The notes under the pieces were generated by a model. That model saw only the letters and a list, made by a program, of their open reading frames with translations, was not told where the DNA came from and did no database searches. Positions 5,631-21,134 of a stretch of 64,000 nucleotides of DNA are shown piece after piece; the stretch's first letter is position 1; the number at the start of each line of letters is the position of its first letter. This DNA comes from Leptolyngbya sp. 'hensonii' (lineage in GTDB: Bacteria > Cyanobacteriota > Cyanobacteriia > GCF-001939115), in assembly GCF_001939115.1 (NCBI RefSeq), contig NZ_MQTZ01000041.1, forward strand, positions 436,816 to 500,815, given 5' to 3'. The position numbers and the translations under genes are program-made.

Positions 5631-5721
5631 AAGCTTAAAACCCTTGGACCGTAGGCTGTTTGCCACTTAGTACAAGGGTTCTGATCGCGCCTTTGAGGAT
5701 ACCCCCAGGGGAATTCGAATC
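5631..5721. repeat. Left attachment repeat (attL)
   Basis: This matches 21044-21134 over 91 bp. It has 16 identical bp (AAGCTTAAAACCCTTG), a diverged 15-bp loop, then 60 identical bp ending in the tRNA-Glu 3' part (5700-5721). The flanking arms AACCCTTG (5639-5646) and CAAGGGTT (5673-5680) form a hairpin that was probably the original terminator of the tRNA gene before integration displaced it. Confidence 0.9.
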
Positions 5722-5783
5722 ACCTTGATAGAGTCAATTAAACTCTCTTCTAGTAAGAGTTTCAAGGTTCAGGTGTTCCGGTC

Positions 5784-5804
5784 TTGACTAAAGTTTGACT
5801 AAAA
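5784..5804. promoter_or_regulatory. Left arm-type integrase site
   Basis: Two direct copies of TTGACTAAA, 10 bp apart, lie 63 bp inside the left attachment repeat. The same 21-bp sequence occurs in the same orientation at 20965-20985, between the integrase start and the right repeat. Paired short repeats near both ends are typical arm-binding sites for tyrosine recombinases. This is inference from position and identity. Confidence 0.6.
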
Positions 5805-5825
5805 ATCACTGAAACCCCCCCCACT

Positions 5826-6767
5826 TTACACAGTATCTGAAACTAAAAATTCAGCCCCCAGATCTGAATAGCCCAAATCCCCAGGACAGGCTATTTGAAT
5901 TTTCCAAGCTCCCTGCTTTGCTGTCAGAGGGAAGCCATTCAAATCTGACGGATCGCTGTCTGGAAAGGCCTGAATCACTACATAGCTGGGGGTGCTGGTC
6001 AGGTTGACATCCTTATCTGTGTTCCCCAGCTCAATTTTTGCCCATCGTTGGTAGCCGGAATAAAGTCTCCCGTCGATCGTGAAGGTTCCCCCGCTGGAGA
6101 AGTCCCCCAAGTAGTCAGCACTATCCCAGTCCCCAAACTTAACCGACTTCTGGCTTTCTTCCAGTTCTGAACCGGTGTCCAGCGTGGCCAATCCGTTCGG
6201 AGCACCCCGGTAATCTGCCAGGGCATCCCAGATTTCAGAGCCGGTCATGCCCCCCCCACTGCCCCCACCCCCCCCACCGGTCCCAGATGGTAGAAATTCA
6301 TCTGGGACTATGCCATTAATACCCAGTGGGCAAATCCCATCTGGCGCACCTTTTTCTATGGTTCGGATGGCTCCCACCTGAGAAGCCGTTACCCCGTGGG
6401 GGTTGCTACTGTTGCTGGTATGGCTCGATAGGTTGCTACTCGATGCGGCTCCAATGTCCCCCAGGGTTAGGTTATGAACGTTGCCTGTGGCGGTCGTGTG
6501 TTGCGTCAGGTCATACTCGTTAGCCTTTGCCTCTAGTAACGTCAGAACGTTCTCTACCACTGCATCCAATGCCGCTGCTGTGATGCCCATGGGCTGAACG
6601 GCTCCAGCTTCTGTTCCGGTGGCCCGGTAGAGTTGACCTGTCTCACCGAGACAGATTATTTGCCCTGAGAAGTCAGGGGTAATCGATCCGGCTGCCACGC
6701 CAGAAACAAGCTTCAGTTTCGCGTAGTGCAGTTGGTTCGGATTAGTTAAAGTTGCATGATTGCTCAT
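5826..6767 (-). CDS. Tail-fibre-like / receptor-binding protein
   Basis: The protein is 313 residues. The central region holds two short phage tail-fibre-type repeats: HTTATGNVHNLTLGDIGA (about 93-110) and HTSNSSNPHGVTASQVGA (about 116-133). The H...NPHGVTxxQVGA pattern is well known in tail fibres of tailed phages. A glycine-rich linker (about 167-176) separates these from a C-terminal beta-rich domain, as expected for a shaft plus a host-binding tip. It is the last gene of the leftward operon, 5 bp after the 87-residue gene. The C-terminal domain is not recognised. A role in attachment is inferred; non-tailed particles can carry similar spikes. Confidence 0.72.
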   Translation of the reverse strand: MSNHATLTNPNQLHYAKLKLVSGVAAGSITPDFSGQIICLGETGQLYRATGTEAGAVQPMGITAAALDAVVENVLTLLEAKANEYDLTQHTTATGNVHNLTLGDIGAASSSNLSSHTSNSSNPHGVTASQVGAIRTIEKGAPDGICPLGINGIVPDEFLPSGTGGGGGGSGGGMTGSEIWDALADYRGAPNGLATLDTGSELEESQKSVKFGDWDSADYLGDFSSGGTFTIDGRLYSGYQRWAKIELGNTDKDVNLTSTPSYVVIQAFPDSDPSDLNGFPLTAKQGAWKIQIACPGDLGYSDLGAEFLVSDTV

Positions 6768-6772
6768 GATTG

Positions 6773-7036
6773 CTACTCCACATAGAGAACATTGTTGCCG
6801 TCAGTAAGTACCTGGTCATCAGAGACCAGGATCAGATCGAAGTCTGCCCCAGCTCCCCCACCCTGGATCGCCTGCCAGTCTGCCGGGTCGTTGGTGCCGG
6901 TGGCAAGGTAGAGGGTTCTGGTCTGACTGTCAAACCAAAGGCTTTTGATCTGGCCTGGGGCAGAGGTGGGGGGATTGGGGGCAATAGTAAAGTCTGCCTG
7001 TGCCAGGTCTGGGATAAGAGGATTGATGGTGGGCAT
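6773..7036 (-). CDS. Small element protein, probably structural (87 aa)
   Basis: No family is recognised. The sequence contains LWFDSQTRTLYLATGTNDPADWQ, close in style to the QLYRATGTEAGAVQP segment near the N-terminus of the neighbouring fibre-like protein. Such 'what is displayed' beta motifs are common in phage fibre N-termini and fibre-attachment proteins. The ATG follows directly after the TAA of the upstream gene with no gap, so translation is probably coupled. Likely a partner or head domain of the fibre; moderate certainty that it is expressed, low on function. Confidence 0.6.
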   Translation of the reverse strand: MPTINPLIPDLAQADFTIAPNPPTSAPGQIKSLWFDSQTRTLYLATGTNDPADWQAIQGGGAGADFDLILVSDDQVLTDGNNVLYVE

Positions 7037-8929
7037 TTATTTAACCTCTGGGGGTGACAGGTCTGTGACTCTGGGGGTGGGCTTACCTCGGTTGATGCGG
7101 GAATTTGGATCTTCTAGATCCTGTACAAATTGCTCCCACTCATCCCGGTTGTCCCGCCGATCTCCGTCTACCAGTTCAACCAGAGATTTGATAGCACTGC
7201 CAGCCCCATGGGTGCGATCTGTTCTATAAAAGACTGCCTTGATAATCCCGGCTGCAAACAGCAGTTTGGCGACCGCGCCAAACAGGGTATCCTTTTCTTC
7301 GTTCTCCCAGCCCACAATTTTTTGCTTTGACTGTTGCAGCAAATCTTCCAGGGAATCCAGCTTTGTGGGATTGACCGCGTAATCAATCTCTCTGGTTTTG
7401 TGGTTCCCCCGGTATCCCAAAAATTCAGCATTCCCCCTGGCGTAGTCTTGGGTGACGATAGCTGCATTCTTGGTTGCCACAATTTCGGCTAAAACCCTGG
7501 TAAGCATGTTGATGCTCAGGTCGGAGTCGATCGCCCCGTTCAGGGTTAGTCCGTAAATTTCCGCTAAGGCTTCTGAGATGTTTGGCAAGCTAATCCTCTT
7601 GCTCTGATTGCCTGACTTGGTTGGGTCGGTATCTTGAATTTCTACCTCTACGGGGAACTGCCCTACGACGCCATCCATGGAGCCCACAAACCATGCCAGC
7701 CAATCAGCAAGGCTCTCAATTCTGACTGGGCTATCCTTTCCGGTTAGCAGGGTGGCTGGAAGCGTGGCCGGAAGCTGGTCAGAGCCAACTGCTTTATTTA
7801 ATTTCCGCAGTTGAGCCAGTATCTGACGCATCAATTCTTCGTTCTCATTGGAAGTACTACAGCAGCAACTCATGCATACCTCGCAGTCATCTTTTGGTGG
7901 GGGTGGGGGTGGCCCCGCTTTAACAAATACAGGAGTGCAGTTCTCCTGTTTGAACAGGGCAAAGGTTGTTTGCAGGTCCATGATATTGGGGGTCCAATAC
8001 CGCTGTCCCTGGTAGGGATGCAGCCCCTGTCTGTAAGCCCAGATCTCAAAACTGTGGGTCATCTGGCATGACTCAATCAGCTCTTTGACCGAGAATCCCA
8101 CAGCATAGAACGGTAGATCGTATCTAACCCAAACACTGGGCATTTCGGTCGCCAGACACTCTGAGTAATAAAGCGGATCTGGATAGGTGACAAACCGGTA
8201 GAGCCCCTTACACAGAAAAAAGAGTGAAGCCCCTTTATACAGACCGTCTGGGGATTCAGAAGTCTCTAGCCTCACAGCTTCAACAGGTCCGATCAGTCCT
8301 TCATCACCCGAGGGTACAAGGAAGTTACTTAAAAGCTGAAAAACTGACGTGAAATTGCCGTTAGGCCCAGCCCCGTACTGAGCGTACATCCTGAGCACGA
8401 TCTTGTAGATGAAACACTTCTTCTGCCTCTCAGTATTGAATGTGGCCCCAGTCGTAAAATCTCTGGGGTCAAAGAAGTCAGAACTGATTCCCCCGCCCAG
8501 GTCTTTATCTGGGGGTCTGCACTCCGGCCTTCTCCAACAAATCGTATAAGGGGGAAGACTCACGTAGGCGAGACTGGGAGCGATCGTGAGGCAAATTTCA
8601 CAATCACTGGCTGAAATCAGTGGATCTAGACCTACCCTATCCAGACTAATGCCCGACCCCCCGCAGTAGGGAGAGTCAGGCCATCTGTCACAGTCCCTGG
8701 GATCTACTGGCTCCAAAGGAGTTTGATAGAAGCCCGACCCCCCGATCGGTGTAAGCCCACCTGTAACCGGTGGCCCCTGTTGCTGAAAGCGATCAAGATC
8801 ATCTAGTGGCCCAGAGTCATCACTATCTCTAAAATCGGGTTCATCCCGGCTTCTGGGGGTTGTCCGGTTCGGCCCCCGATTCCGTTCTCTCCTAAATGAC
8901 CCCCCTCTTGCCCTGCCACCGGTAGCCAT
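7037..8929 (-). CDS. Large element protein with Arg-rich N-terminus and Cys cluster (630 aa), unknown function
   Basis: No family is recognised. The first 45 residues are rich in Arg and Gly and could bind nucleic acid. Cysteines recur in the first 400 residues (CEICL, CWRRPEC), and a dense CEVCMSCCCS cluster lies near residue 356 after a proline run, suggesting metal binding or disulfides. The C-terminal 230 residues look alpha-helical (MRQILAQLRKLNKAVG onward). An upstream TTG at 8947 is possible, but ATG at 8929 overlaps the previous stop as TGATG, which fits coupled translation. It is the largest protein of the leftward operon and a candidate structural or genome-associated protein by position only. 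Confidence 0.7.
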   Translation of the reverse strand: MATGGRARGGSFRRERNRGPNRTTPRSRDEPDFRDSDDSGPLDDLDRFQQQGPPVTGGLTPIGGSGFYQTPLEPVDPRDCDRWPDSPYCGGSGISLDRVGLDPLISASDCEICLTIAPSLAYVSLPPYTICWRRPECRPPDKDLGGGISSDFFDPRDFTTGATFNTERQKKCFIYKIVLRMYAQYGAGPNGNFTSVFQLLSNFLVPSGDEGLIGPVEAVRLETSESPDGLYKGASLFFLCKGLYRFVTYPDPLYYSECLATEMPSVWVRYDLPFYAVGFSVKELIESCQMTHSFEIWAYRQGLHPYQGQRYWTPNIMDLQTTFALFKQENCTPVFVKAGPPPPPPKDDCEVCMSCCCSTSNENEELMRQILAQLRKLNKAVGSDQLPATLPATLLTGKDSPVRIESLADWLAWFVGSMDGVVGQFPVEVEIQDTDPTKSGNQSKRISLPNISEALAEIYGLTLNGAIDSDLSINMLTRVLAEIVATKNAAIVTQDYARGNAEFLGYRGNHKTREIDYAVNPTKLDSLEDLLQQSKQKIVGWENEEKDTLFGAVAKLLFAAGIIKAVFYRTDRTHGAGSAIKSLVELVDGDRRDNRDEWEQFVQDLEDPNSRINRGKPTPRVTDLSPPEVK

Positions 8930-9105
8930 CAGTTCAACAGGCTCCAATAGTTAGGGCGAAAAATAAATCCGTTGTAGGGCTCCCCAATGCGATTAGCTCT
9001 GATGGATAGGGCCTCATACTCTGCAGGCCCATAGAAGTCATAGGGAATGTGAACGTATTTGCGTCCCCTGCGCTGAATTCTTACCCAGGAATTTAAGTTA
9101 AACAT
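8929..9105 (-). CDS. 58-residue element protein, unknown
   Basis: A short frame of 58 residues begins MFNLNSWVRIQRRGRKYVHI and ends RPNYWSLLN. It exactly fills the gap between its neighbours: its ATG overlaps the preceding stop as TAATG at 9105, and its TGA overlaps the next ATG as TGATG at 8929. Double stop-start overlap on the same strand is strong evidence for a real, translationally coupled gene. It is basic and aromatic, with no recognised domain. It would be missed by a 60-residue cutoff. Confidence 0.7.
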   Translation of the reverse strand: MFNLNSWVRIQRRGRKYVHIPYDFYGPAEYEALSIRANRIGEPYNGFIFRPNYWSLLN

Positions 9106-9908
9106 TAGAACCCTTCCAGCCCGGTCAGGGTGGCAGGTCCATCTGCTACGGCTGCAATAGAACCCCGGTAGAGGTTGGTCAGGTTGATCTCATAAGTGCC
9201 CCCTCCCCTGACCAGGGTGATACCCTTGCCCCGCTCGGCCACCCCCCCATAGGCCAGGTAGGCATCATAGTTCCTGGACGTGTTGATCAATGTCACCTGT
9301 AGCCGGTTGGGATTGGCCGGTAGGATTACCTGGCTGCCGGTGGATAGAACCCAGTTATGGGCTTCCGAGCCGGTGATTTCTTCAGCGTCTGTAGGCAGGC
9401 TAAATGCCTCCTCTTTGACACTTCCGAAAATAGTTACCCGGTCATCCCCTTCCAGGAAGTTGTGCCCTACGTTGACAATCCTGGCCCCGATCGAACAATC
9501 GTTACTGACGTTAAAAAAACCATCGTCAGTAAAGTAGGGCATCAAGGGGATGTGGTAGTAAGGCAGGCGATTGAGCAGGCTAATACTGGCGATCGGCTGC
9601 CAATCAATCCGACTATTCCGCATTAATAGCTGTAATTCCTTCCTTGGCCCCTTCCACTCTGCATCCCTGACAGCAATCAGCCGATCGGTCCTGGATGCTG
9701 TGATATCCAGGTCTGGGATGGCTGACTCTTCAGTGGAGTTGATATCCACCAGCATTCTTAACCCGGTCAGATAGCCGTTATATCGGATGACGTTAGAACG
9801 CTCATAGGGTGATACCCAACCGGGTGAATAAACTTCTATCAGCTCTCCAGTCGTGGCAGCAGTGAAGGTCTTCAATACCGACACGGTTCTTACAAAGGTT
9901 TGTTGCAT
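9105..9908 (-). CDS. Probable structural (beta-rich) element protein, 267 aa
   Basis: First gene of the leftward operon. The C-terminal 70 residues (LQVTLINTSRNYDAYLAYGG ... GGGTYEINLTNLYRGSIAAV) resemble the small beta domain seen in many virion proteins. The preceding part (PYYHIPLMPYFTDDGFFNV ... DDRVTIFG) is also beta-rich and could be a jelly-roll-like fold, which I cannot confirm. I chose ATG at 9908 because an upstream start at 9956 would run into the divergent gene at 9950; that upstream option remains possible. If 9908 is right, both operons share a promoter region of only 41 bp. Candidate capsid or spike protein. Confidence 0.68.
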   Translation of the reverse strand: MQQTFVRTVSVLKTFTAATTGELIEVYSPGWVSPYERSNVIRYNGYLTGLRMLVDINSTEESAIPDLDITASRTDRLIAVRDAEWKGPRKELQLLMRNSRIDWQPIASISLLNRLPYYHIPLMPYFTDDGFFNVSNDCSIGARIVNVGHNFLEGDDRVTIFGSVKEEAFSLPTDAEEITGSEAHNWVLSTGSQVILPANPNRLQVTLINTSRNYDAYLAYGGVAERGKGITLVRGGGTYEINLTNLYRGSIAAVADGPATLTGLEGF

Positions 9909-9949
9909 AGCATAAAATTTGCATAGTACACAATTACTAGCTTCAATAT

Positions 9950-10312
9950 ATGCCAAGCGATTTAACTTTTAGTGATGCTCAAATTGCCTCCGGTGTGTCT
10001 GGAACCTTTACCTATGACGCTGGTAATGACGATGTCCTGATCTCCGTCAAGAAAATCACTGGCGATAGCTATGCAGCCCTTACAGACACAGGGGTAATTG
10101 AATTTGTCTCCAAACTCCTGAACCTGTGCGAAAAGGCTCAAACCTCAGTGAATGCAACGGCTGTGGCAGGCTCCCGGTTGAATGCTTTCCAGTCCCCGGT
10201 CTATGGAGTCCCCAGTCAGGAAGCGAATGGGGACTTTTACGCCAGTGTCACCTACACAATGATTGCCAGGGCTCCATTAAGCCTGAATGATCCGATCGGA
10301 CCTGTTATCTAA
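9950..10312 (+). CDS. Small element protein A (120 aa), paralogue of the protein at 12049
   Basis: First gene of the rightward operon. It is clearly related to the 114-residue product at 12049. Both carry TGD(S/T)xxALTDTGV(I/L)EF, an AQ(T/E)(S/T)VN segment, and end in (P/V)xNxxIGPVI / NTAVIVGPNI. No family is recognised. Small size, duplication within one element and a position heading the operon make these two the best candidates for abundant repeating structural subunits. Its TAA overlaps the next ATG (TAATG at 10310-10314). Confidence 0.7.
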   Translation: MPSDLTFSDAQIASGVSGTFTYDAGNDDVLISVKKITGDSYAALTDTGVIEFVSKLLNLCEKAQTSVNATAVAGSRLNAFQSPVYGVPSQEANGDFYASVTYTMIARAPLSLNDPIGPVI

Positions 10313-11841
10313 TGGGCATCGTAATTTCGGCTAAGAACCTGCTTAGCCGTGCAACACGGCAATCTGCAACCGGAAACTCTTCTGGCCTGCGTAAAATAAA
10401 CCTGTTTTCAGGCGCAATCACCAAAACGGAGAAGGGCGGCCTGATCCAGCAAATATTTAATGCCGGAGGTAAGTTTATCTCCTGGATTGCTGGGGAAGCA
10501 CTTAAATTTCTCTCCTGGTCTATTACTGGGATTTGGGATTGGGTTGTAGAGAAGACAATTGAGCTATCTCAGTTCAATTGGAATGCTTCGGACCAGGAGT
10601 TGCAGGTAAACCTGCAGTCTGTTAATGAGCAGTTGGGTTCGATTTGGGGGGGATTAACGGGCTCAGGGATTGGCTGGCTAGCTGCCATGGGCCTGGGATT
10701 TGGCGTCTCCCTGGTAGTACCGGTGATCGGCGGTCCCATGCTGGCAAGGTCGATCGCTGGAAAGGTCGCTATCGAAGCTGGCCAGGATCTGACTAGTCGG
10801 CTATTTGCCGCCATATTTCAGACTTTTAATGTGGGGGCAACTAATGCAACAGTCAACACCTACATCAATTTCCGTAAATGGCTGAAAGACCCAAATAACA
10901 AGCTATTGGATAGCCTGTTCCCCAAAGAGACTGCCGCAAAGATACGGAAGGATTGGGGTAAGCAGGGTGGCCCCCAGTGGACGATCGCTAAGGCCATTGA
11001 CGATAAGGTCAACTCTATCAAAAACCCCCTACTCAGGGGTTTCGTACAGGGTTTAACCTCTGAGTCCTTTGAAAGTTTCATTGAGGGTGGGTATGTTGTT
11101 GCCTATGAACTTGAGAATGCCTATGAGCAGGCGAAACTAGCTAGGCAGACTTCCCGTGGTGGGGAGAAGGAAATTATTCTGGTTCCTGATCGGGAAGTAC
11201 CAGAAGAGACAATAGTGTTAACCGGCAACAAGGAAACCACAATTCAGGAGGTACAAACCGCCCTCACCTCCCACCGGCTTGTTTATAACCGGGATGTCGG
11301 GATGATTGCCGGGGAAGCCTACCGGGATGACGCCCATGCCCCCGTTGCATCTCTGAGGCAGTTAAAAATAGTCTTCAAGGCAAAGGCTAAACCTCCATAC
11401 CGGGATGCTAAAGGTAATCGCCCCCGTGAAACCTATTGCACCATCTCTGATGTGGATCGCGGGTTGACCTGGGGAAAGGTCAAGTTTGCCGCTAAGCATT
11501 GGACATGGGGCAAGTGCTATGCAGTAGGAAGGTTTGCTAGTCGCCGCAAGATGGTTGTCTACGGTGCAACTGAAACAGAGGCAGAGAGAAAACTTAAGGA
11601 ATTGGCGGTTCTAAGCTCATCCCGGTTGCTTACCGTTCGCACAGGTACAGAGCGGGAAGTTGATGCCAGGAAACGTAAAAAGCCGGTCGAGATGTATCCG
11701 GCCTACGCAATCCTAATCACGCTATCCCCATCCCCTACCGGAAAGGTTGTAACCATTGACGGCAAGCAGTACAAGCGTGAGCAAGTTCGCGTCAACCTGT
11801 ACCCAGATGAAGAACCAAAAGACTCTCCAAAACTGAGCTAG
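10312..11841 (+). CDS. Membrane-associated element protein with glycine-rich hydrophobic hairpin (509 aa)
   Basis: No family is recognised. An amphipathic aromatic stretch (about 50-85, FISWIAGEALKFLSW) is followed by a strongly hydrophobic, glycine-rich pair of segments (about 115-155, GIGWLAAMGLGFGVSLVVPV). The C-terminal half is soluble and basic, with several Lys/Arg-rich blocks and an aromatic core (KHWTWGKCYAVGRFASRRK). No Walker A motif is present. It could insert into the host membrane during entry or particle assembly, or sit in a particle's internal membrane; both are inference. It overlaps the upstream stop by one base and is followed by a terminator. Confidence 0.7.
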   Translation: MGIVISAKNLLSRATRQSATGNSSGLRKINLFSGAITKTEKGGLIQQIFNAGGKFISWIAGEALKFLSWSITGIWDWVVEKTIELSQFNWNASDQELQVNLQSVNEQLGSIWGGLTGSGIGWLAAMGLGFGVSLVVPVIGGPMLARSIAGKVAIEAGQDLTSRLFAAIFQTFNVGATNATVNTYINFRKWLKDPNNKLLDSLFPKETAAKIRKDWGKQGGPQWTIAKAIDDKVNSIKNPLLRGFVQGLTSESFESFIEGGYVVAYELENAYEQAKLARQTSRGGEKEIILVPDREVPEETIVLTGNKETTIQEVQTALTSHRLVYNRDVGMIAGEAYRDDAHAPVASLRQLKIVFKAKAKPPYRDAKGNRPRETYCTISDVDRGLTWGKVKFAAKHWTWGKCYAVGRFASRRKMVVYGATETEAERKLKELAVLSSSRLLTVRTGTEREVDARKRKKPVEMYPAYAILITLSPSPTGKVVTIDGKQYKREQVRVNLYPDEEPKDSPKLS

Positions 11842-13033: not shown

Positions 13034-13262
13034 CAGTCCCCTGATTCTGCCTGGACATCCCCTGTTTGACCTGACCCTGGCCAGTCCTCCCCCTAACTGG
13101 GGGGAAGTGGCTGCCAGGGATGGCAACACCTACGCTCTTGTCGCAGAACCCGGGTCGGGTATCATGCGACCGGCAACTCAGGCAGAACTGGAGGATTACC
13201 TCTATGGGGGTGAGTACGACGAACGCATGGACGAAATAGGTGAATGGGATGACCTGGATTAG
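13011..13262 (+). CDS. Small acidic element protein (83 aa)
   Basis: It begins MTSSPTPNSPLILPGHPLFD, and the C-terminus is strongly acidic (LYGGEYDERMDEIGEWDDLD). No domain is recognised. It overlaps the previous gene by 23 bp and is followed 4 bp later by the next start. The pairing of a basic 195-residue protein with this acidic partner could indicate a complex, which is speculation. Confidence 0.58.
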   Translation: MTSSPTPNSPLILPGHPLFDLTLASPPPNWGEVAARDGNTYALVAEPGSGIMRPATQAELEDYLYGGEYDERMDEIGEWDDLD

Positions 13263-13266
13263 CGTC

Positions 13267-14369: not shown

Positions 14370-14941
14370 CACCCTTTGTAACAACGATCGCTCAATCGCC
14401 CCCACCCCCCCAGCTACCCCCGGTATCCCCTGGTCTGGGGGATTTTGCCGCAATCTCCCTGATCGTTGCAGCGATCGGGACAGTGGCAAAACAAGCGTGG
14501 GAGTACTTTGTCCAGAAGGATAAGCAAGAGTCGGGTTTGACTGACACCCTGATCAATGACCTGCGAAACAACCAGGCGAAGATTATCTCCGACGTGACCC
14601 AGGGAATGGATCGGCTGGCTGCAGCCTACAAGGAAACAGCACTGGAGAGTCGCGCTGACTTTAGGTCGGCGATTGAGGAACTAAGAAAGGGGGAAGCCGG
14701 TCTGCAGGGTGCCGTAGTGCACCTGGGGCAGACAATCGGCCAGGATGTTCAGGCAAACCTTAAGACTCAAACACTGTTGTACGAATCCCACCGGAGTGCA
14801 ATGGAGGAATTGAAGTTCAATTTAAGAGCTCTACACGAGAGAGCGGATCGGTGGGAAGTTGTTCTTAAGCAGCTCTGCGAGGGTAATTGCAACTACCCAG
14901 CAGACCGACCAAATCGGAACAGCTCGGACTTTCCAGGTTAA
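14366..14941 (+). CDS. Membrane-anchored coiled-coil element protein (191 aa)
   Basis: A proline-rich N-terminus (PPPPQLPPVSPG) is followed by one hydrophobic segment (about 25-45, FAAISLIVAAIGTVAKQAW). A long helical, probably coiled-coil region runs from about 50 to 175, and a short Cys pair CEGNC lies near the end. A single membrane anchor with a long coiled coil is compatible with a lysis accessory protein or an injection/tethering protein, but no family is recognised. ATGA overlap with the previous gene indicates coupled translation. Confidence 0.62.
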   Translation: MTPFVTTIAQSPPPPQLPPVSPGLGDFAAISLIVAAIGTVAKQAWEYFVQKDKQESGLTDTLINDLRNNQAKIISDVTQGMDRLAAAYKETALESRADFRSAIEELRKGEAGLQGAVVHLGQTIGQDVQANLKTQTLLYESHRSAMEELKFNLRALHERADRWEVVLKQLCEGNCNYPADRPNRNSSDFPG

Positions 14942-14953: not shown

Positions 14954-15250
14954 GTGAGAGTACCCCTTGGTTATGTGCAAGCAGTTTCGTTGGCTATTAA
15001 GTGCGAAGCAATTCGCGACATTGTAGAAAAAGCCAAAGCAGACGGAAAAGTATCTACAGAGGAGTGGATATGCATTTGTATTGCTGCCACTCAAACAGTT
15101 TTAGGGATATTCGGTGAACAAATTCCGTCTGAGGTTGTGAGTGATATTCAGGGGATAGGTAAGGCTCTGAATGATATTGGCGATCTCAATGCTGAAGGCT
15201 TAAACCAGACGGTTAAATCCCTTCAGGAGGTGACTTGGAAGGAATCCTAA
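14954..15250 (+). CDS. Small helical element protein (98 aa)
   Basis: A strong AGGAGG lies 6 bp before a GTG start. The sequence is mostly alpha-helical (AIRDIVEKAKADGKVSTEEW) and has a hydrophobic segment with two cysteines (ICICIAATQTVLGIFG). It could be membrane-associated. No family is recognised. It is the last gene of the rightward block; the neighbouring gene on the other strand ends 2 bp beyond it. Confidence 0.6.
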   Translation: MRVPLGYVQAVSLAIKCEAIRDIVEKAKADGKVSTEEWICICIAATQTVLGIFGEQIPSEVVSDIQGIGKALNDIGDLNAEGLNQTVKSLQEVTWKES

Positions 15251-15251
15251 C

Positions 15252-15968: not shown

Positions 15969-15969
15969 G

Positions 15970-16344
15970 TTATTTACCTTCAGCTACTGTGGCAAGGCGA
16001 TCTCCTACAGCCCTAACAACTTTAGCGAACTTGTCATCAGGAAGACATTTAATTTGCTCAACCATCTTGTCAATGCCGGACATAGGGGGCAGCTCTCCCC
16101 CGGAAAGATAGGTGATCATCTCATCCAAAGTGTAACCAGCGCTAGCGGCAATCTTTAGGAGGTTCCTAGTATCTGGGACAGTCGATTGATCTTCCCAGTC
16201 ACGCACTGTAGTTCCTGCAACCCCTAATTTCCTTCCGTATGCTCTCTGACTTAACCTTTGCGTAGAGCGAACACCCCTGATCAAATTTGCCAGCCTTTCT
16301 CTGGCTTCAAGGCTTAATTCCACAGTATTGCTGTACACACACAT
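15970..16344 (-). CDS. XRE-type HTH transcriptional repressor
   Basis: A helix-turn-helix of the Cro/CI type occupies about residues 20-65 (SQRAYGRKLGVAGTTVRDWE), followed by a helical region likely used for dimerisation. At 124 residues it is in the range of phage repressors without a self-cleavage domain; I see no Ser-Lys peptidase motif. I chose ATG at 16344; a GTG sits one codon upstream. It is divergent from the RHH gene at 16451, across a 106-bp region with repeated half-sites, the layout of a lysogeny switch. Confidence 0.82.
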   Translation of the reverse strand: MCVYSNTVELSLEARERLANLIRGVRSTQRLSQRAYGRKLGVAGTTVRDWEDQSTVPDTRNLLKIAASAGYTLDEMITYLSGGELPPMSGIDKMVEQIKCLPDDKFAKVVRAVGDRLATVAEGK

Positions 16345-16450
16345 CACTTCCTGCTACTAAGCATAGATTACCCACTGGTGTAAGTAACTCACAGTAGTTG
16401 ATTGCTAAAAACAGCAGTTAACTATATGCTGTGATTGAACAGCATTTTTG
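16345..16450. promoter_or_regulatory. Divergent promoter/operator region of the element switch
   Basis: This region lies between the XRE repressor and the RHH gene. It contains ACAGCA and TGCTGT arms around GTTAACTATA (about 16412-16433), and a third half-site in GAACAGCAT just downstream. Three half-sites near two divergent starts suggest repressor binding. The exact -10/-35 boxes are not clear to me. Confidence 0.45.
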
Positions 16451-16843
16451 ATGTCTATGGAAACCACTCGATTACAGCTTCTTATTCCTGTGGAGATTGA
16501 CATACAACTTAGGGTTGAAGCGGCCAGGAACAGGCAATCAATCAGCCAATTAGCTACTGCCGCATTCATCACCTATCTATCCTTCCTTGAGGAAAGCTCT
16601 AACAAAGAGCCGGAGTGTGATTTACAGCTTCTGGTAGGTGATTATTTTGAGACTCGCAGCAAGTCCATCCTGAAGCTCCAGGGCTTCACAGAATTGGGCG
16701 ATTGCCTGTTCCTGCACGTTGACTCTGGGGTGAAATTGCCACCCATCCCCAGATCTATGGCTAAGTCCCGGTTACGAAATATCTCTGATTGTGCCTGGGA
16801 TAAGCCCATCACAGACCTGACTGTGGAGATTTGCGCGTCATGA
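16451..16843 (+). CDS. Ribbon-helix-helix-like regulator (130 aa)
   Basis: The N-terminus (TTRLQLLIPVEIDIQLRVEA then RQSISQLATAAFITYL) has the strand-helix-helix pattern of CopG/Arc-type DNA-binding proteins. The C-terminal 70 residues are not recognised. ATG at 16451 is preferred over a TTG one codon upstream. As the first gene of the rightward early block, opposite the XRE repressor, it may play the Cro-like or activator role of the switch. Its stop overlaps the next gene by 4 bp. Confidence 0.6.
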   Translation: MSMETTRLQLLIPVEIDIQLRVEAARNRQSISQLATAAFITYLSFLEESSNKEPECDLQLLVGDYFETRSKSILKLQGFTELGDCLFLHVDSGVKLPPIPRSMAKSRLRNISDCAWDKPITDLTVEICAS

Positions 16844-17070
16844 TCGGGAGAGATCTTTGCTTCCCTCAAATCACAGTTGGCGGATTCACAAGTCCAATGA
16901 ATCCAGGTCTGACAAAACGTGAATTTTTCGCCTGCCAAATAATGACTGCCTGGTTAAACGTCATATTACGTGACGGAGGCGTGAGCGATAAGCAGGTGAA
17001 AATCATTGCTCGCGATTCGGTGGCTTATGCCGATTTCCTGCTGGAAGCTATCGAGGAGGCAGATGAGTGA
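16840..17070 (+). CDS. Small early element protein (76 aa)
   Basis: It starts at an ATGA overlap with the previous gene. The motif NPGLTKREFFACQIMTAWL resembles the 'GLTKREYFA' small proteins frequent in early regions of phages and prophages, whose function is unknown. The C-terminal segment is acidic (LLEAIEEADE). Its TGA overlaps the next ATG (TGATG at 17068-17072). Confidence 0.65.
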   Translation: MIGRDLCFPQITVGGFTSPMNPGLTKREFFACQIMTAWLNVILRDGGVSDKQVKIIARDSVAYADFLLEAIEEADE

Positions 17071-17333
17071 TGGCTGCAAATAGGGAAATCAGCGTGTCTG
17101 AGTTGATTGAGGCAACCCCCTTTGGTCAGCCGGTTCAACTTCCTCATGGCAAGCTTTACCCCCTCACGGAGGGAAGTACTGAGGGGGTCTGGACAACCTC
17201 CTCAGGTCGGATCATCCTCACAGAGCATTTGTTCAAGACCATGAACGATCAGGGCCATATCGTTGCCTCTGAGTGCTTCACGTTTGGCCCTGATGGCAAC
17301 CCTTACCTGTATTGCCGGGAGTTAGAGGAATGA
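17070..17333 (+). CDS. Small early element protein (87 aa)
   Basis: No family is recognised. It is a compact mixed protein (MAANREISVSELIEATPFG ... FGPDGNPYLYCRELEE). ATG at 17070 overlaps the preceding TGA; its own TGA overlaps the next ATG. Four successive overlapping genes from 16451 to 17548 form one translationally coupled unit. Confidence 0.6.
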   Translation: MAANREISVSELIEATPFGQPVQLPHGKLYPLTEGSTEGVWTTSSGRIILTEHLFKTMNDQGHIVASECFTFGPDGNPYLYCRELEE

Positions 17334-17548
17334 GGTATTTAGGCTACTTTGAAACCGGAAATTTTCCCCACACGATGCGCCACTGGCTTTATCAGAGATC
17401 CAATGGGGCCATCCAGGTATTGAGCAATTCGGTGATTTTCACGGCTACTTATCCCAGCTGGGAAGAAGCCAAAAAACATATTCCTACGGATGCGCGCATC
17501 AACATGGACAGAAAGCCCCTGGAATCATGGCAGTCCCTAGGTGCATGA
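17330..17548 (+). CDS. Small early element protein (72 aa)
   Basis: The ATG overlaps the previous TGA (ATGA). The sequence MRYLGYFETGNFPHTMRHWL ... YPSWEEAKKHIPTDARI is aromatic-rich and probably a small globular domain of unknown function. It is the last gene of the coupled unit; a HIP1-rich non-coding stretch follows. Confidence 0.58.
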   Translation: MRYLGYFETGNFPHTMRHWLYQRSNGAIQVLSNSVIFTATYPSWEEAKKHIPTDARINMDRKPLESWQSLGA

Positions 17549-18178: not shown

Positions 18179-18183
18179 ATGTT

Positions 18184-18219
18184 GGGCTTCCACCAAAGCT
18201 GGTGGAAGCCCTTAGTTTT
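18184..18219 (+). terminator. Intrinsic terminator between the early unit and the initiator gene
   Basis: A perfect 11-bp stem, GGGCTTCCACC / GGTGGAAGCCC, with a 6-nt loop (18184-18211) is followed by TTAGTTTTGTTG. It ends the early transcript just before the initiator start at 18233. Reading the initiator from ATG at 18179 would place this hairpin inside the coding region, a reason to prefer the 18233 start. Confidence 0.75.
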
Positions 18220-18232
18220 GTTGAGCAGGACT

Positions 18233-18757
18233 ATGGAACCATTTATCAAGGTGACCGTTAGGGATTTGACAGTTTTAAACAGCCTGAATCTCAGATACAG
18301 CGAGTATCGGCTGTTCTGGTATTGCAAGGTCTTAGACCCGTTCTGTAATAGGTGGGCTCCTTTCAGCGTTCCAGAGGCTCTTAAAGTTTGCAATTTTCAG
18401 TCCGTTGGCACAGTCTACATGGGCCTTAAGACTCTCAAAACCAAAAAGCTGGTTAACGTGGTTTGGGAAAACGGTAGGGTATCTGTGGAAAACTTTTTCT
18501 CTGGAAGGAGTGTGGATCACTGCAGTGATCCTACGATCACCACAGTGATCGAAGATCACTGCAGTGATCCTACGATCACCACAGTGATCGAACCCCCCCC
18601 AGAAACAGCCAGGGGCGCTGACTTCGAACCCTCTAAGATTAAGAATTTAAAAGATATAAGAAAGAGCGATTTAAAAAGTTTTCCACAGGCCGGTTTTCCA
18701 CAGGCCCCAAAGCCAGGAACTTCAGAATATTGGAAGTGGATAGGGGGTCAGCAATGA
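18233..18757 (+). CDS. Putative replication initiator with internal origin repeats (174 aa)
   Basis: The N-terminal 90 residues (MEPFIKVTVRDLTVLNSLNL ... VWENGRVSVENFF) look like a winged-helix domain of the kind found in phage replisome organisers. Residues 95-120 are two identical 13-residue repeats (DHCSDPTITTVIE), encoded by a perfect 39-bp tandem duplication carrying origin-like repeats. A disordered basic linker and a short tail ending GTSEYWKWIGGQQ follow and may contact a host helicase. Its stop overlaps the next gene (ATGA). The initiator call rests mainly on the embedded origin; no helicase or primase motif is present, so host DnaB would be needed. Confidence 0.65.
   Translation: MEPFIKVTVRDLTVLNSLNLRYSEYRLFWYCKVLDPFCNRWAPFSVPEALKVCNFQSVGTVYMGLKTLKTKKLVNVVWENGRVSVENFFSGRSVDHCSDPTITTVIEDHCSDPTITTVIEPPPETARGADFEPSKIKNLKDIRKSDLKSFPQAGFPQAPKPGTSEYWKWIGGQQ
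18484..18702. other. Candidate replication origin inside the initiator gene
   Basis: A reverse DnaA box TGTGGAAAA lies at 18484-18492. Four inverted-repeat iterons GATCACNNNNGTGATC lie at 18515, 18535, 18554 and 18574 (start-to-start 20, 19 and 20 bp). An A-rich stretch runs from about 18635 to 18678, then two forward DnaA boxes TTTTCCACA at 18679-18687 and 18694-18702. This matches a theta-type origin (iterons, unwinding region, DnaA boxes), with the arrangement inside the initiator gene as in phage lambda O. The iterons contain eight GATC sites in 78 bp. Confidence 0.75.
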
Positions 18758-19035: not shown

Positions 19036-19286
19036 TGATGATATTTGATGAAGGCGTTCAGATCGGGGAACCATGCCCTAATTGTGAAAGCACCAGCACA
19101 GAGCATCGAGGTGGTGGTCTGTGGAAATGCGAGATTTGCTCAACTGCCTGGGGGCAAGAGTCGTTAACTGAATCCCAATCCTGTCCAAAGTGCAATAGCT
19201 CCAATACTGAAGAGTCCTGGTCATTGCCAGATCATTGGAGCTGTGTGAACTGTGGGTATAAGTGGAGATTGAATCATGGGGCGTAA
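19035..19286 (+). CDS. Double zinc-ribbon protein (83 aa)
   Basis: Two CxxC...CxxC knuckle pairs are visible: CPNC with CEIC (about 14-36) and CPKC with CVNC (about 52-75), each expected to bind one zinc. The first unit contains GLWKCEICSTAWGQ and the second HWSCVNCGYKW, typical of small zinc ribbons that bind nucleic acid or RNA polymerase. It starts in a TAATG overlap and overlaps the next gene by 11 bp. A regulatory or replication accessory role is inferred. Confidence 0.7.
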   Translation: MMIFDEGVQIGEPCPNCESTSTEHRGGGLWKCEICSTAWGQESLTESQSCPKCNSSNTEESWSLPDHWSCVNCGYKWRLNHGA

Positions 19287-19497
19287 AGGCAGAAAACCTA
19301 TCGGTGAATGGCTGCCCACCGGGGGAGCTGCAGAGCAATTGGGTATCTCTGCCCGTCGTCTGCGAGACCTGAGAGATGATCTATCCATGGGGAAGCATTA
19401 TCTGATTGTCAGTAAGAGGAATGCCGATCGCCCAACCTACCTGTGGAACATTCATTCAATTCGCAGTTATCTTTCTACTCCACTGGAGGTGAGGTGA
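19276..19497 (+). CDS. Excisionase-like HTH protein (73 aa)
   Basis: A short basic protein with a winged-helix/MerR-like helix-turn-helix (WLPTGGAAEQLGISARRLRDL, about 12-32), then a wing (KHYLIVSKRNADRPTYLWNI). This size and fold match recombination directionality factors (Xis) and small MerR-like regulators. It lies one gene away from the integrase, supporting a role in excision. It overlaps the zinc-ribbon gene by 11 bp. Confidence 0.62.
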   Translation: MGRKGRKPIGEWLPTGGAAEQLGISARRLRDLRDDLSMGKHYLIVSKRNADRPTYLWNIHSIRSYLSTPLEVR

Positions 19498-19866
19498 TTG
19501 ATTTGTGTTACAGAAATCAAACGTGGAGGGGCACGTCAGGGGGCCGGTCGTAAGAGAGCTGATGATCCAACCGTTGTTATTCGTGTCCCCAGCAGTCAAG
19601 AGAAGGCTTGTAAAGAGTTGGTTCAGTTCGGTTTTACTTCTGACCAGGTGAGATTTGCTTACTCTCTAATTATTGTCAAACAAACAGGGCTATCCATTCC
19701 TGGTGTACCGGTTAACCTTAAAGACATCCACGCCTATGGCTTCCAGTGGATAAATTACCAGCATTTTGAATCCGCAGTGATGATGATGGCCGCCAAGAAC
19801 GCCAACAAATCAATGAGAGTCTGTAGGGGCCTTGTCAGTGATTGGGCTCTACAGATTGAGTGGTGA
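19498..19866 (+). CDS. Element protein with GGARxGAGRK motif (122 aa)
   Basis: The start is probably TTG at 19498, directly after the previous stop, with GGAGGTGAGG about 5 bp upstream. The N-terminus RGGARQGAGRKRADDP matches the basic GGARxGAGRK motif seen at the start of many phage and plasmid proteins, including DNA-binding ones, with VVIRVPSSQEKACKELV following. The rest is not recognised. It overlaps the convergent integrase gene by 18 bp. Confidence 0.6.
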   Translation: MICVTEIKRGGARQGAGRKRADDPTVVIRVPSSQEKACKELVQFGFTSDQVRFAYSLIIVKQTGLSIPGVPVNLKDIHAYGFQWINYQHFESAVMMMAAKNANKSMRVCRGLVSDWALQIEW

Positions 19867-20958
19867 TGGAGGTGTGGGGCGATCGCTCCTCATCATCAGA
19901 GTCTCGAAGGCTCTTTGATGATGGCGATCGCTAATCCAATGATGGTATGTCTCTGTATGGACCTGGACAGAGTGCCCCATCTGCTGGGCAGCCAGGGAGA
20001 TATCTAGACCAAATTCCATTGTTCTGATGGCCCAGCAATGACGCAAATCGTAGAGCTTGAAGGGAAGCTTATGATCTGCGAAATATCTTGTTGCAGAGTG
20101 CCCAACCTTGTCATTACTCCGGCTTAGGTCGATAGGGGGAAGGTTCACCTTTGATAAATGGAATTGGTCAAACCATTCCGGGTAACAGGGCCACACCCTT
20201 CGCGTCCCGGTTTTGGTTTTCTCCAACACTGTGATCACCTGGCTACCCTGGCTCAGCTCCTGCAGGTCTAACCGAAAGACCTCATGGGGTCTCAATCCAT
20301 AAGTGGCCAGCATCCCATACACCCATCGCCATGCCTGATTTTTTAGGCGATAGAAGACTTCGGCAATCAGCAGATCGTCAGGCAGGTCTCTGGGGGATAC
20401 GCGCCTGGGCGAGTAGTTGCCCGATAAGCTGGCTGGGTTAAAGTCCAGTCCAGCAAATTTAGCTATTGCTCCGGCTGCCATACAAGCCCGCTTTCTGGTT
20501 TTGGTATTGGGGACTGTCGCCAGAATTAATGCTTGCAGTAGCTCACTGGTGAGCTGTTGATCCTGGGGGAGGTTCTTCAGAGGTTTCCAGTAATCCCCTT
20601 GCCAGGTTGTCTCTGTTCCCCCGGCTGCCAGGTAGTGAGCCTTGAACTCTTCAATCAGAGTTGAGGCTGTACGTGATTTTTCCCGTACCGGTTCCAGATA
20701 GGGAACCCAGGAAAATTCCTTGCAGGCCAGCAGGCCCCCGATCGCCTTGGCCTCTGCTTCTGCTCTTTTTACTCCGGCTGCATTGGCGTAAATCCCCAGG
20801 GTAATCCACTGCTGGTGGGGGTGAAGCTTGCCTGACCCAGGTTTAGGGGGAAAAGTGCCCCTCAGGTAAAGCCGATCGCCTGTTTTGGTGAGACGAACTC
20901 CCACATTGGCACTTTTTAACCGGGTGTTTGCCGCTGCGATCCGTGCGCCTATGTCCAT
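19849..20958 (-). CDS. Tyrosine-family site-specific integrase
   Basis: The protein is 369 residues. The N-terminal region is a DNA-binding arm/core domain. The C-terminal catalytic domain shows the first Arg (TYGLRPHEVFRLDL, about 223), HxxR-like LYDLRHCWAI (about 315), a GHS segment (QQMGHSVQVHTETY) and the nucleophilic Tyr near 342. It lies next to tRNA-Glu and reads away from it. The start codon is 6 bp from an arm-type site, so the integrase may repress its own promoter. This is the enzyme expected to integrate and excise the element. Confidence 0.93.
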   Translation of the reverse strand: MDIGARIAAANTRLKSANVGVRLTKTGDRLYLRGTFPPKPGSGKLHPHQQWITLGIYANAAGVKRAEAEAKAIGGLLACKEFSWVPYLEPVREKSRTASTLIEEFKAHYLAAGGTETTWQGDYWKPLKNLPQDQQLTSELLQALILATVPNTKTRKRACMAAGAIAKFAGLDFNPASLSGNYSPRRVSPRDLPDDLLIAEVFYRLKNQAWRWVYGMLATYGLRPHEVFRLDLQELSQGSQVITVLEKTKTGTRRVWPCYPEWFDQFHLSKVNLPPIDLSRSNDKVGHSATRYFADHKLPFKLYDLRHCWAIRTMEFGLDISLAAQQMGHSVQVHTETYHHWISDRHHQRAFETLMMRSDRPTPPSPLNL

Positions 20959-20964
20959 AAGTGG

Positions 20965-20985
20965 CTTGACTAAAGTTTGACTAAA
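20965..20985. promoter_or_regulatory. Right arm-type integrase site
   Basis: A 21-bp sequence identical to 5784-5804, containing two direct TTGACTAAA copies. It lies between the integrase start codon and the right attachment repeat. Confidence 0.6.
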
Positions 20986-21043
20986 TATCGAGGTATATTC
21001 TCGTATATTTAGGGGTATTTATGTACTATCGCATATTTCCAGA

Positions 21044-21112
21044 AAGCTTAAAACCCTTGCACTGTAGCTTCTTCGCCACTTAGTACAAGGGTTCTGATCG
21101 CGCCTTTGAGGA
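21044..21112 (-). terminator. Element-supplied terminator of tRNA-Glu
   Basis: On the minus strand, downstream of the tRNA, an 8-bp stem (AACCCTTG / CAAGGGTT) with a 26-nt loop is followed by TTTTAAGCTTTC. The stem is identical in the displaced host copy at 5639-5680 while 15 bp of the loop differ, which supports selection on pairing. Confidence 0.5.
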
Positions 21113-21134
21113 TACCCCCAGGGGAATTCGAATC
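21044..21134. repeat. Right attachment repeat (attR)
   Basis: The 91-bp counterpart of 5631-5721. It overlaps the 3' 22 nt of tRNA-Glu (21113-21134). The part from 21044 to 21112 is supplied by the element and carries its own copy of the terminator: arms AACCCTTG (21052-21059) and CAAGGGTT (21086-21093), with a loop diverged from the left copy. Confidence 0.9.

Follow-up and report, generated by a model that had tools for sequence, protein, structure and literature searches.

A small tRNA-Glu-integrated element of Leptolyngbya sp. 'hensonii', probably a member of a virus-like lineage of cyanobacteria without recognisable tailed-phage packaging

Fuselloviruses such as SSV1 have archaeal hosts and combine a circular genome of about 15 kb with a tyrosine integrase acting at a tRNA gene and with structural proteins that lack relatives. 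Corticovirus PM2 (Varidnaviria), a membrane-containing virus of the double jelly-roll type, also has a circular genome, of a size class similar to that of the element studied here. This element resembles the fuselloviruses in its size (~15 kb), in its integrase at a tRNA gene and in its orphan structural proteins, no shared gene being claimed. With PM2 and Varidnaviria it has in common a predicted jelly-roll protein, g05, whose C-terminal barrel superposes on chain 2w0c_L; in the window element we found no double jelly-roll coat, no FtsK-type packaging ATPase and no sequence relative of PM2.

In cyanobacteria, tyrosine-recombinase elements near tRNA genes are described as integrase elements of marine picocyanobacteria (PMC10187409) and as tycheposons (Hackl et al. 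2023). The islands in PMC10187409 are described as varying in their genes, with restriction and nutrient genes among the cargo, whereas the present family keeps its structural-type module constant. Vibrio has tailless and filamentous prophages below 16 kb that standard surveys missed, according to PMC11630473, and these are likewise small, non-tailed and overlooked; they derive from described tailless and filamentous phages, whereas no functionally assigned family in the searched libraries is matched by the core proteins reported here. For Nostoc punctiforme, PMC12691664 describes a chromosomal prophage of ~37 kb with tail genes.

Here we analyse an element within a 64-kb stretch of DNA (the window). 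It belongs to a widespread family of small integrating or circular cyanobacterial elements that is apparently undescribed; no description turned up in the open-access library searched. We interpret it as probably an integrated member of a small temperate virus-like lineage of cyanobacteria, without recognisable tailed-phage packaging.

Insertion site, integration and replication control

The element comprises 15,413 bp between two copies of the 3' end of tRNA-Glu.

5630..5724, no strand: attL, tRNA-Glu 3'-end copy plus downstream bases
5783..5807, no strand: left copy of an inner 25-nt direct repeat (partner 20965-20989; 96% identical)
19276..19497, plus strand: g26, 73 aa, xis-like
19849..20958, minus strand: g28, 369 aa, tyrosine integrase (PF00589, E 2e-7; phrog_1, E 3e-20)
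21043..21137, no strand: attR, repeat partner of attL
21113..21185, minus strand: tRNA-Glu (TTC), intact, the integration target (ARAGORN)

The direct repeat is 93% identical over 95 nt with a longest exact run of 60 nt (5662-5721 and 21075-21134), far above chance, and its attR copy holds the 3' end of the intact tRNA-Glu. The earlier note had read this region as a 15.4-kb tRNA-Glu-integrated element with an integrase, and both points are borne out. The inner 25-nt pair is a possible integrase arm site. The note's xis-like gene stands by size and position: relatives of g26 adjoin the integrase in one related locus (L071) and lie one ORF away in another (L086), as in the window; neither Pfam nor PHROGs gave a match. 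The site-specific integration and excision genes of a temperate virus are represented by att repeats, an integrase and a xis-like ORF. The relaxase or coupling protein of an integrative conjugative or mobilizable element was not found: Pfam scans of the window's genes revealed no relaxase family, and two circular relatives from plasmid records are non-mobilizable in PLSDB typing. A search of the element's own genome gave no convincing CRISPR-type match to it.

15970..16347, minus strand: g17, XRE-type regulator (HTH_3, E 1e-4)
16448..17548, plus strand: g18-g21, putative early or control genes (g19 matches phrog_2201, E 1e-7, without assigned function)
18179..18757, plus strand: g23, 192 aa, putative initiator-like gene with internal repeats
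18484..18702, no strand: likely replication origin inside g23

The control region proposed in the note is supported by g17, whose HTH_3 match falls just short of the Pfam cut-off. The likely origin has four iterons, each palindromic (18515-18589), together with three DnaA-type TTTTCCACA boxes, the only copies of that sequence in the 64-kb window. The iteron pattern, picked post hoc, has 8 matches over both strands against 0.17 expected. The repeats within g23 also occur in a relative (L065); g23 itself matched nothing in Pfam, PHROGs or PDB.

Candidate structural genes

Genes g01-g05 lie on the minus strand and g06-g14 on the plus strand.

5826..6767, minus strand: g01, 313 aa, protein with tail-fibre repeats (PHROGs: tail collar fibre at E 9e-6; further tail families)
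6773..7036, minus strand: g02, 87 aa, adjoining the fibre gene (phrog_9464, E 5e-4, a family without assigned function)
7037..8947, minus strand: g03, 636 aa, core protein
8929..9105, minus strand: g04, 58 aa, ORF only
9105..9956, minus strand: g05, 283 aa, predicted jelly-roll-like domain (17-187) and second beta-barrel (190-283) (AF2, fold search)
9950..10312, plus strand: g06, 120 aa, paralogue of g08 (family in 27 loci)
10312..11841, plus strand: g07, 509 aa, the most constant protein
12049..12393, plus strand: g08, 114 aa, paralogue of g06 (family comparison across loci)
12446..13033, plus strand: g09, 195 aa, basic, two tandem ~90-aa repeats (hhalign, AF2)
13011..13262, plus strand: g10, 83 aa, acidic (pI 4.1), adjoining g09 (42 loci)
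13240..13614, plus strand: g11, 124 aa, H04-family relative (14 loci; hhalign to H04 96.7%)
13620..14369, plus strand: g12, 249 aa, weak F5/8 type C carbohydrate-binding domain (PF00754, E 0.002, below cut-off)
14366..14941, plus strand: g13, 191 aa, one hydrophobic segment (20-43; hydropathy)
14954..15250, plus strand: g14, 98 aa, with a relative in the locus L043

The tail-fibre-repeat protein announced in the note is real, and g01 may serve host recognition; neither g01 nor g04 has relatives in the family loci. The note also counted about 12 further probable structural genes. Eight of these (g03, g05-g11) are supported as real genes, since they have relatives; clear family matches did not follow, weak ones being confined to g02, g12 and g13. 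g13 is holin-like in layout only; its hhalign score to H08 is just 31% and its TPR_21 match (E 7e-4) is below cut-off.

The 267- and 630-aa proteins of the note are presumed to correspond to g05 and g03, here 283 and 636 aa from upstream TTG starts. In g03 the N- and C-terminal parts are conserved and the middle is variable; among ten long variants, collagen repeats occur in one and an Ala-zipper in one, and a stalk- or vertex-like role appears plausible. A match to Inovirus Coat protein B in the long variant L049 (E 1e-5, 26 residues, just past the Pfam cut-off) was taken as low-complexity. Two PHROGs families, tape-measure or internal-virion, are each weakly matched by one of 32 g03 members.

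g05, with an AF2 model of pLDDT 85.4, may be a spike, penton or coat protein. Its jelly-roll matches (Z 6.5-8.5) are level with nucleoplasmin and BcsB, and may therefore reflect a mere common arrangement; Ena-fibre and cement-protein structures are matched too. The C-terminal barrel superposes on 2w0c_L of the PM2 entry, a chain which we take to be the P1 spike, with Z 9.4 and rmsd 2.3 over 85 residues, a score that the unrelated 1yll equals and a gamma-carboxylase nearly reaches. A tail-fibre family of PHROGs is matched by 1/21 g05 members; other weak matches, the best at E 4e-6 in 1/21, lack assigned function.

g07 has a hydrophobic N-terminal part (stretch 118-147) and a separate C-terminal domain; in some relatives the protein is split over two genes. 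Pfam gave no match to any of 35 members, and 4/35 weakly match a PHROGs tape-measure family (best E 8e-4). The internal duplication of g09 is supported by hhalign (98.1%), and its AF2 model is confident (pLDDT 87.8, pTM 0.79). No fold match was obtained for this model among PDB and BFVD structures, nor did any chain reach Z >=2 among 397 aligned by VIA-align, which is no proof of a new fold. We infer that g09 is a candidate coat protein. As regards the double jelly-roll of Varidnaviria, the two modelled proteins gave one jelly-roll-like domain plus another barrel in g05 and no fold match for g09. Visual inspection had suggested links between g08 and H23 or H05, which found no support; an hhalign link of g09 to g07 (98.9%) was rejected, as it stems from one fused ORF (L080, 785 aa) among the g07 sequences.

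In the fold check proposed in the note, its 267-residue protein is predicted to be jelly-roll-like; PDB-sequence profile searches with g03, g05, g07 and g09 gave only E 0.05 or worse.

The family in cyanobacteria and its complete relatives

The module g05-g03-g07-g09-g10 was found in 25-28 of 386 sampled cyanobacterial genomes (g07 in 25, including one marginal case, G087; g03 in 28) and at 44 named loci. These loci are the confirmed ones among 81 pattern stretches, and all 44 come from records with cyanobacterial names. Among the 40 distinct loci with long flanks, on which per-locus presence was counted, g03 is present in 39 and g05 in 31; the g09/H09/H34 slot is empty in eight. The absence of g05 from nine loci and of the g09 slot from eight is odd for a coat protein.

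The five proteins are inherited together: pairwise distances of g03, g07, g05, g09 and g10 correlate with Mantel r 0.54-0.78 (a level reached in 0 of 2000 permutations), and less with those of the integrase (r 0.39-0.58). In close pairs dN is well under dS (g07, 0.036/0.534; g09, 0.023/0.26), and the conserved module is under purifying selection.

A tblastn search of 50,697 phage records with g03, g05, g07 and g09 found nothing. Among 72,556 plasmid records, g07 and g03 matched the same two cyanobacterial plasmids, and g05 one of those. Pattern scans of IMG/VR contigs, a method that can miss relatives, gave no confirmed relative for g05 or for g07, the latter used both as single proteins and as alignments; the alignment behind the 44 genome loci, with a slightly different pattern set, yielded 43 stretches, none confirmed.

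Complete relatives measure 12.5-20.8 kb and are circles or integrated at tRNA genes. Circular ones are of 12,548 bp (127-nt end overlap), 20,757 bp and 20,803 bp. One of 12,576 bp is integrated at tRNA-Met, tandem units of 20,327 bp begin inside tRNA-Phe, and other tandem units are of 18,006 bp. At G005:C62 the 3' half of a tRNA-Phe gene recurs at a distance of 18,039 bp, and a second repeat pair is 18,589 bp apart; the left copy of this pair lies outside the tRNA-Phe span, so that the element ends are uncertain there. A reading of the pair as inner arm sites was dropped. Searches for att repeats at the tRNAs of L048/L090, L053 and L111 found none. The note had suggested looking for the same gene order at tRNA-Glu in other cyanobacteria. 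The module does recur, and the family is not bound to tRNA-Glu: relatives occupy tRNA-Met (L071) and tRNA-Phe (L096) or exist as free circles.

Some relatives have lysis genes. One H41 member is an endolysin by phrog_435 (E 4e-55) and Amidase_3, one H27 member by phrog_33083 (E 9e-15), and a small hydrophobic ORF lies within 1.5 kb upstream of 13 of 14 distinct H41, H27 or H25 genes. H41 or H27 occurs in 8/40 distinct long-flank loci, 11 when H25, lysin-like by eye only, is counted. The window copy has no recognised endolysin. Some relatives encode primase-helicases (H14, H15), and some carry H20, with a sub-threshold FtsK match confined to the P-loop.

Packaging genes and competing explanations

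The note had found no terminase, HK97 capsid or Walker A motif, and the searches made here found none in the element's genes either. Pfam was run on all 28 element genes and PHROGs on 20; neither gave a sequence match to terminase, portal or HK97 capsid among the genes searched. The Walker A pattern [AG]x4GK[ST] occurs once in six frames of the element; this single match lies in an overlapping frame, and no gene of the 28 encodes it. The large terminase of Caudoviricetes and the FtsK/HerA-type packaging ATPase of Varidnaviria are accordingly not seen in the window element. Two complete circular relatives lack Terminase_6N and PF05065 (HK97 capsid). A match to a known capsid or terminase family, named by the note as grounds for refutation, did not emerge from Pfam, PHROGs or PDB searches, and no element protein matches a known capsid by sequence.

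The note had left three readings open, a new non-tailed virus lineage, a satellite and a non-virion structure. What favours the first is the occurrence of both circular and integrated relatives, the endolysins with small membrane proteins beside them, the presence of genes for replication, purifying selection on the conserved module and the jelly-roll-like prediction for g05.

A non-virion reading, in which an integrative plasmid moved by other means encodes an injection machine or a fibre that is secreted or sits on the cell surface, would agree with a stalk-like g03 with its collagen and Ala-zipper variants, with the Ena-fibre and cement-protein matches of g05, and with the absence of a packaging ATPase and of a coat gene common to all loci. 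It is unlikely in view of the relatives' cassettes of endolysin and small membrane protein, the family's own replication genes and likely origin, the two plasmids typed as non-mobilizable, and the window's genes, among which no tube, sheath or baseplate family is named.

A phage satellite, which excises and replicates and whose DNA is packed in the capsid of a resident or incoming tailed phage, its own structural genes modifying the particle, is improbable. Small size, the tRNA site, the fibre repeats of g01, the unrecognised terminase, portal and HK97 capsid and the weak tape-measure or internal-virion matches of some g07 and g03 members speak for it. Known satellites usually borrow replication and lysis functions, whereas this element has its own likely origin and some relatives their own primase-helicases and lysins. 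Moreover, phrog_2, presumably a terminase family, matched in 21 of the 25 genomes taken as element-bearing (G087 being doubtful), strongly (E <1e-10) in only 4, and its control matched in 11 of 14 genomes; Terminase_6N occurs in 3/25. The scarcity of clear resident terminases makes a satellite less likely. The window's own genome is in neither terminase set. A satellite's helper phage need not be resident.

A tailed-phage lineage diverged until terminase, portal and capsid became unrecognisable, to which the weak tape-measure and tail-fibre matches of g07, g03 and g05 members and the g01 repeats might point, is very improbable, given a window element without a Walker A gene, relatives whose P-loop proteins are replication-type or not shared, and no HK97 capsid among the listed fold matches of the g05 and g09 models.

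For the favoured non-tailed virus lineage, the following life cycle may be proposed. The integrase and the xis-like protein would excise the element as a circle, to be replicated by the host replisome from the origin inside g23. Late genes would then build a non-tailed particle with the g09/H09/H34-slot protein as candidate coat, g05 as jelly-roll spike, penton or coat, g03 as stalk and g07 as a membrane-inserting or vertex protein; g01 and g12 could serve adsorption. Uptake of DNA into the particle would use a borrowed terminase or FtsK-type motor, or no dedicated one. Release of the particles would, in relatives, fall to the small membrane protein and the endolysin.

More tentatively, the family might be a high-ranking virus lineage, so far from cyanobacteria only, with a coat of a duplicated ~90-aa alpha/beta fold (g09) unmatched in solved or viral structures, jelly-roll or barrel spikes and motor-free genome uptake; we regard this wider proposal as possible and rather doubtful. 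If the virus reading is confirmed, ~7% of the cyanobacterial species genomes sampled contain proviruses unseen in the searched phage records, viral contigs and protein-family libraries, and a temperate non-tailed virus group, possibly with a new capsid fold, is added for oxygenic photosynthetic bacteria. Carriers include two strains from culture collections, Tolypothrix sp. PCC 7601, which has a 20.8-kb circle, and Allocoleopsis franciscana PCC 7113.

Besides the gaps in the g05 and g09 slots and the window copy's lack of a recognised endolysin, further points run against a virus. IMG/VR contigs, in which one would look for a released virus, yielded no confirmed relative, and the weak matches to tail or tape-measure families of PHROGs occur in a few members each of g07, g03 and g05. 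The genome that carries the window element has a second element, L043, and it is there that the relative of g14, 60% identical, is encoded.

Element ends, gene content and distribution

A temperate virus-like lineage, known here from its genes alone, is probably the best fit to the element and its relatives. The element extends from 5630 to 21137 in the window and is bounded by a 95-nt direct repeat (93% identity, 60 nt being the longest exact stretch), the right copy of which takes in the 3' end of an intact tRNA-Glu gene on the minus strand. The tyrosine integrase gene adjoins this tRNA at the right end, and an XRE-type regulator (Pfam match below cut-off) lies in the control region; together these features bear out the integrative element at tRNA-Glu proposed in the earlier note. 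A further repeat of 25 nt, with one copy inside each end, possibly serves as the arm site for the integrase. Base composition shows no clear difference between element and flanks.

Pfam was run on all 28 genes (g01-g28) and one extra ORF, PHROGs on 20 of the 28. They name the integrase and, as had been claimed, a tail-fibre-repeat protein; a zinc-ribbon protein matches below cut-off and the remaining matches are weak or of coiled-coil type. No terminase, portal, capsid, tape measure, ATPase or lysin is named by Pfam (28/28 genes) or PHROGs (20/28), in agreement with the claimed absence of packaging machinery. The proteins also lack Walker A as stated, the sole occurrence of the pattern in six frames of the element falling outside all 28 genes. 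The gene g15 contains a 21-nt tandem repeat (15419-15491) encoding a seven-residue coiled-coil-like repeat, and g19 (16831-17070) matches the C-terminal part of phrog_2201, a virus family of unassigned function (E 1e-7). The left element end is flanked by a gene at 2765-5353 which we take from its sequence to be TPR-CHAT-like; similar genes (family F20) lie near elements in loci L043 and L054, which may be chance.

The element is a member of a family, not a single case. Among 386 cyanobacterial genomes, the window's own included, 25 carry relatives of g07 (509 aa) and 28 relatives of g03 (636 aa, stalk-like); the g07 match in one genome, G087, is borderline (E 9e-4), that genome is missing from the g03 list, and a profile finds no g07 at its locus L070. 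The window's genome carries a second, divergent element (L043, on the 14,636-bp contig G000:C10) with relatives of g03, g07, g09, g10, g13 and g14 at 29-60% identity. Scanning 84,980 species genomes by sequence pattern returned 81 stretches and 44 confirmed loci, several sharing one genome and all in records with cyanobacterial names; since the pattern was derived from cyanobacterial sequences, a wider occurrence is possible. The family's gene module is also found on two annotated circular plasmids, one of 20,757 bp in Tolypothrix sp. PCC 7601 and one of 20,803 bp in Allocoleopsis franciscana PCC 7113. Against a virus-like reading, no relative was confirmed among the viral contigs searched.

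The sequence shared by loci L041 and L072 begins and ends with the same 127 nt and is therefore read as a 12,548-bp circle. The Pantanalinema element (L071; 12,576 bp) uses tRNA-Met as its integration site and has a repeat of 48 nt. Calothrix sp. HK-06 (L096/L097) has 20,327-bp tandem units, 99.99% identical over 17.6 kb, the unit beginning within a tRNA-Phe gene, and Goleter (L081/L082) has repeated 18,006-bp units, identical where compared; the tandem copies in both may be real or the assembly of a circle. At a tRNA-Phe element on contig G005:C62 (L125/L069), whose ends are uncertain, a copy of the 3' half of tRNA-Phe lies 18,039 bp away; two overlapping repeat pairs there, 18,039 and 18,589 bp apart, are possibly remnants of two insertions. 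Repeats sought at three further tRNA-adjacent elements were not found. Of the gene order at tRNA-Glu that the earlier note would look for in other cyanobacteria, the module recurs without being tied to that site, the relatives in L071 and L096 lying at tRNA-Met and tRNA-Phe.

The conserved module and its predicted structures

The order g05, g03, g07 is broadly kept among relatives, together with a cassette of three proteins (one basic and about 200 aa long, one small and acidic, one of 120-165 aa) sited before or after g07. The gene g07 is present at 76 loci, 44 of them flanked by 4.5 kb or more in each direction; removal of identical-g07 records leaves 40. Counting genes anywhere in these 40 loci, inside a proven element or not, g03 is present in 39, g05 in 31, a protein of g09, H09 or H34 type in 32, a protein of H02, H04 or g11 type in 35, an integrase family in 17, a primase-helicase (H14/H15/H59) in 17 and a holin-like family (H08/H10/H16) in 18; a lysin of family H41 or H27 occurs in 8, or 11 with H25. 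Pairwise distances of g03, g07, g05, g09 and g10 correlate (Mantel r 0.54-0.78, 0 of 2000 permutations as high; 8 identical-g07 loci dropped, host kinship ignored), and integrase distances correlate less with module proteins (r 0.39-0.58). Moreover, dN is far below dS in most close pairs (0.036 vs 0.534 for g07, 0.023 vs 0.26 for g09), with looser constraint in the g03 pair L044/L067 (0.278 vs 0.462). These data show the module to be functional and, for the most part, co-inherited.

In L064, L060 and L063, g07 is present as two genes on opposite strands, the break falling near residue 300; the two parts are separate proteins at these loci. In 31 loci the opposite strand carries a small basic HTH-like ORF of 67-100 aa (H01), in most cases immediately ahead of the g09 cassette; it is possibly a late-gene regulator, and the window has no member of its family. 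Examples are:

L089, 11532-11747, minus strand, H01 ORF
L081, 8206-8451, minus strand, H01 ORF

The model of g05 (283 aa; pLDDT 85.4, pTM 0.60) predicts a jelly-roll-like sandwich at residues 17-187 and a barrel at 190-283. The sandwich matches satellite panicum mosaic virus 1stm (Z 7.5, rmsd 4.0, 130 aligned), STNV (6.8), FBNSV (7.0), IBDV VP2 (6.8) and the cement protein of phage KHP40 (8.5), and also nucleoplasmin-type NO38 (7.0) and BcsB (7.1), best Z scores of 7-8 being usual without true relatives according to the comparison tool's own caution. The barrel matches 1yll (9.8), PM2 chain 2w0c_L (9.4), gamma-carboxylase (8.7) and cupins (about 7). For this protein, taken to be the 267-residue one that the earlier note would compare with virus capsid folds, viral jelly-roll matches were obtained, but non-viral folds score alike and TM-scores in Foldseek's own list are low throughout; the predicted fold is supported, viral descent is not proven.

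The coat candidate g09 (195 aa; pLDDT 87.8, pTM 0.79) is modelled as two repeats with the same strand/helix order, in agreement with profile self-comparison (98.1%). Searches with the model gave no Foldseek match in PDB or BFVD at E 0.001 and no Z of at least 2 among 397 chains. The protein is basic (pI 9.8), and the gene after it encodes an acidic partner (pI 4.1). Proteins in this position split by sequence into three or more groups, g09, H09 (joining L061/L111 proteins at 73-78%) and H34 (joining L042/L071 proteins at 96-97%), and this variation of the candidate coat protein between loci speaks against a virus-like lineage. The middle part of g03 is variable; among ten long variants, one each matches collagen repeats (E 3e-14), Ala-zipper (E 2e-20) and, over a short stretch, Inovirus coat-B (E 1e-5), and seven lack any match. 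Among 35 g07 members, 4 weakly match a tape measure family in PHROGs (best E 8e-4). Of 32 g03 members, 1 weakly matches an internal virion protein there (E 5e-5) and single ones a tape measure, and of 21 g05 members 1 weakly matches a tail fibre (E 0.001).

Lysis, packaging and the question of a helper

One H41 member matches Amidase_3 (E 2e-30) and the endolysin family phrog_435 (E 4e-55), and one H27 member the endolysin family phrog_33083 (E 9e-15) with no Pfam match; H25 is lysin-like by eye, likewise with no Pfam match. Upstream of 13 of 14 distinct H41/H27/H25 genes (8 of 9 for H41 and H27 alone), no more than 1.5 kb away and in the same orientation, lies a small ORF with a hydrophobic segment, counting ORFs of at least 55 aa, some of which may be spurious. 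The window's g13 contains a hydrophobic segment but has only weak profile similarity to H08 (31%); no lysin was recognised in this copy, a further point against the virus-like reading.

P-loop proteins of the relatives are mostly of replication type (H14, AAA_25/DnaB; H15, D5_N and DUF3854). H20 (7 loci), with a sub-threshold FtsK/HerA match at its P-loop, or H67 (4 loci), which carries a P-loop, may act as a motor in part of the family. When ORFs of at least 180 aa are considered, H14 is the sole P-loop protein of the L041 circle, and in L071 and the L040 circle the sole Walker-A pattern is in g07, at positions without the pattern in the window's g07. Because these proteins are mostly replication-type or not shared, the survey yields no packaging ATPase common to the family.

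A satellite might borrow its packaging. Of the two terminase families searched, phrog_2 (which we take to be one) matches in 21 of the 25 genomes with g07, strongly (E < 1e-10) in only 4, and the control of this search gives matches in 11 of 14 genomes; Terminase_6N occurs in 3 of the 25, and the window's own genome has no strong terminase match. With so few strong matches a resident helper is not the rule; a satellite served by an incoming helper is possible.

A likely replication origin in g23

Beyond the features of the earlier note, a replication origin likely lies inside an initiator-like gene (192 aa):

18179-18757, g23, holding four copies of a 16-nt palindromic iteron

The iteron, its pattern taken from the same sequence, has 8 matches on both strands with at most 2 mismatches, vs 0.17 expected. 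All three sites of TTTTCCACA, presumably the cyanobacterial DnaA-box sequence, that the 64-kb window contains are clustered in 219 bp around these iterons; three per window are mildly unusual by count (3 of 100 shuffles), and the clustering is the signal. The g23 protein has no family match in Pfam or PHROGs and no match in PDB. Its relative in L065 lacks the TTTTCCACA box and also contains repeated palindrome-like sequences inside the gene. The arrangement resembles that of lambda O, an initiator gene containing its own origin, and suggests that the window copy would be able to replicate after excision.
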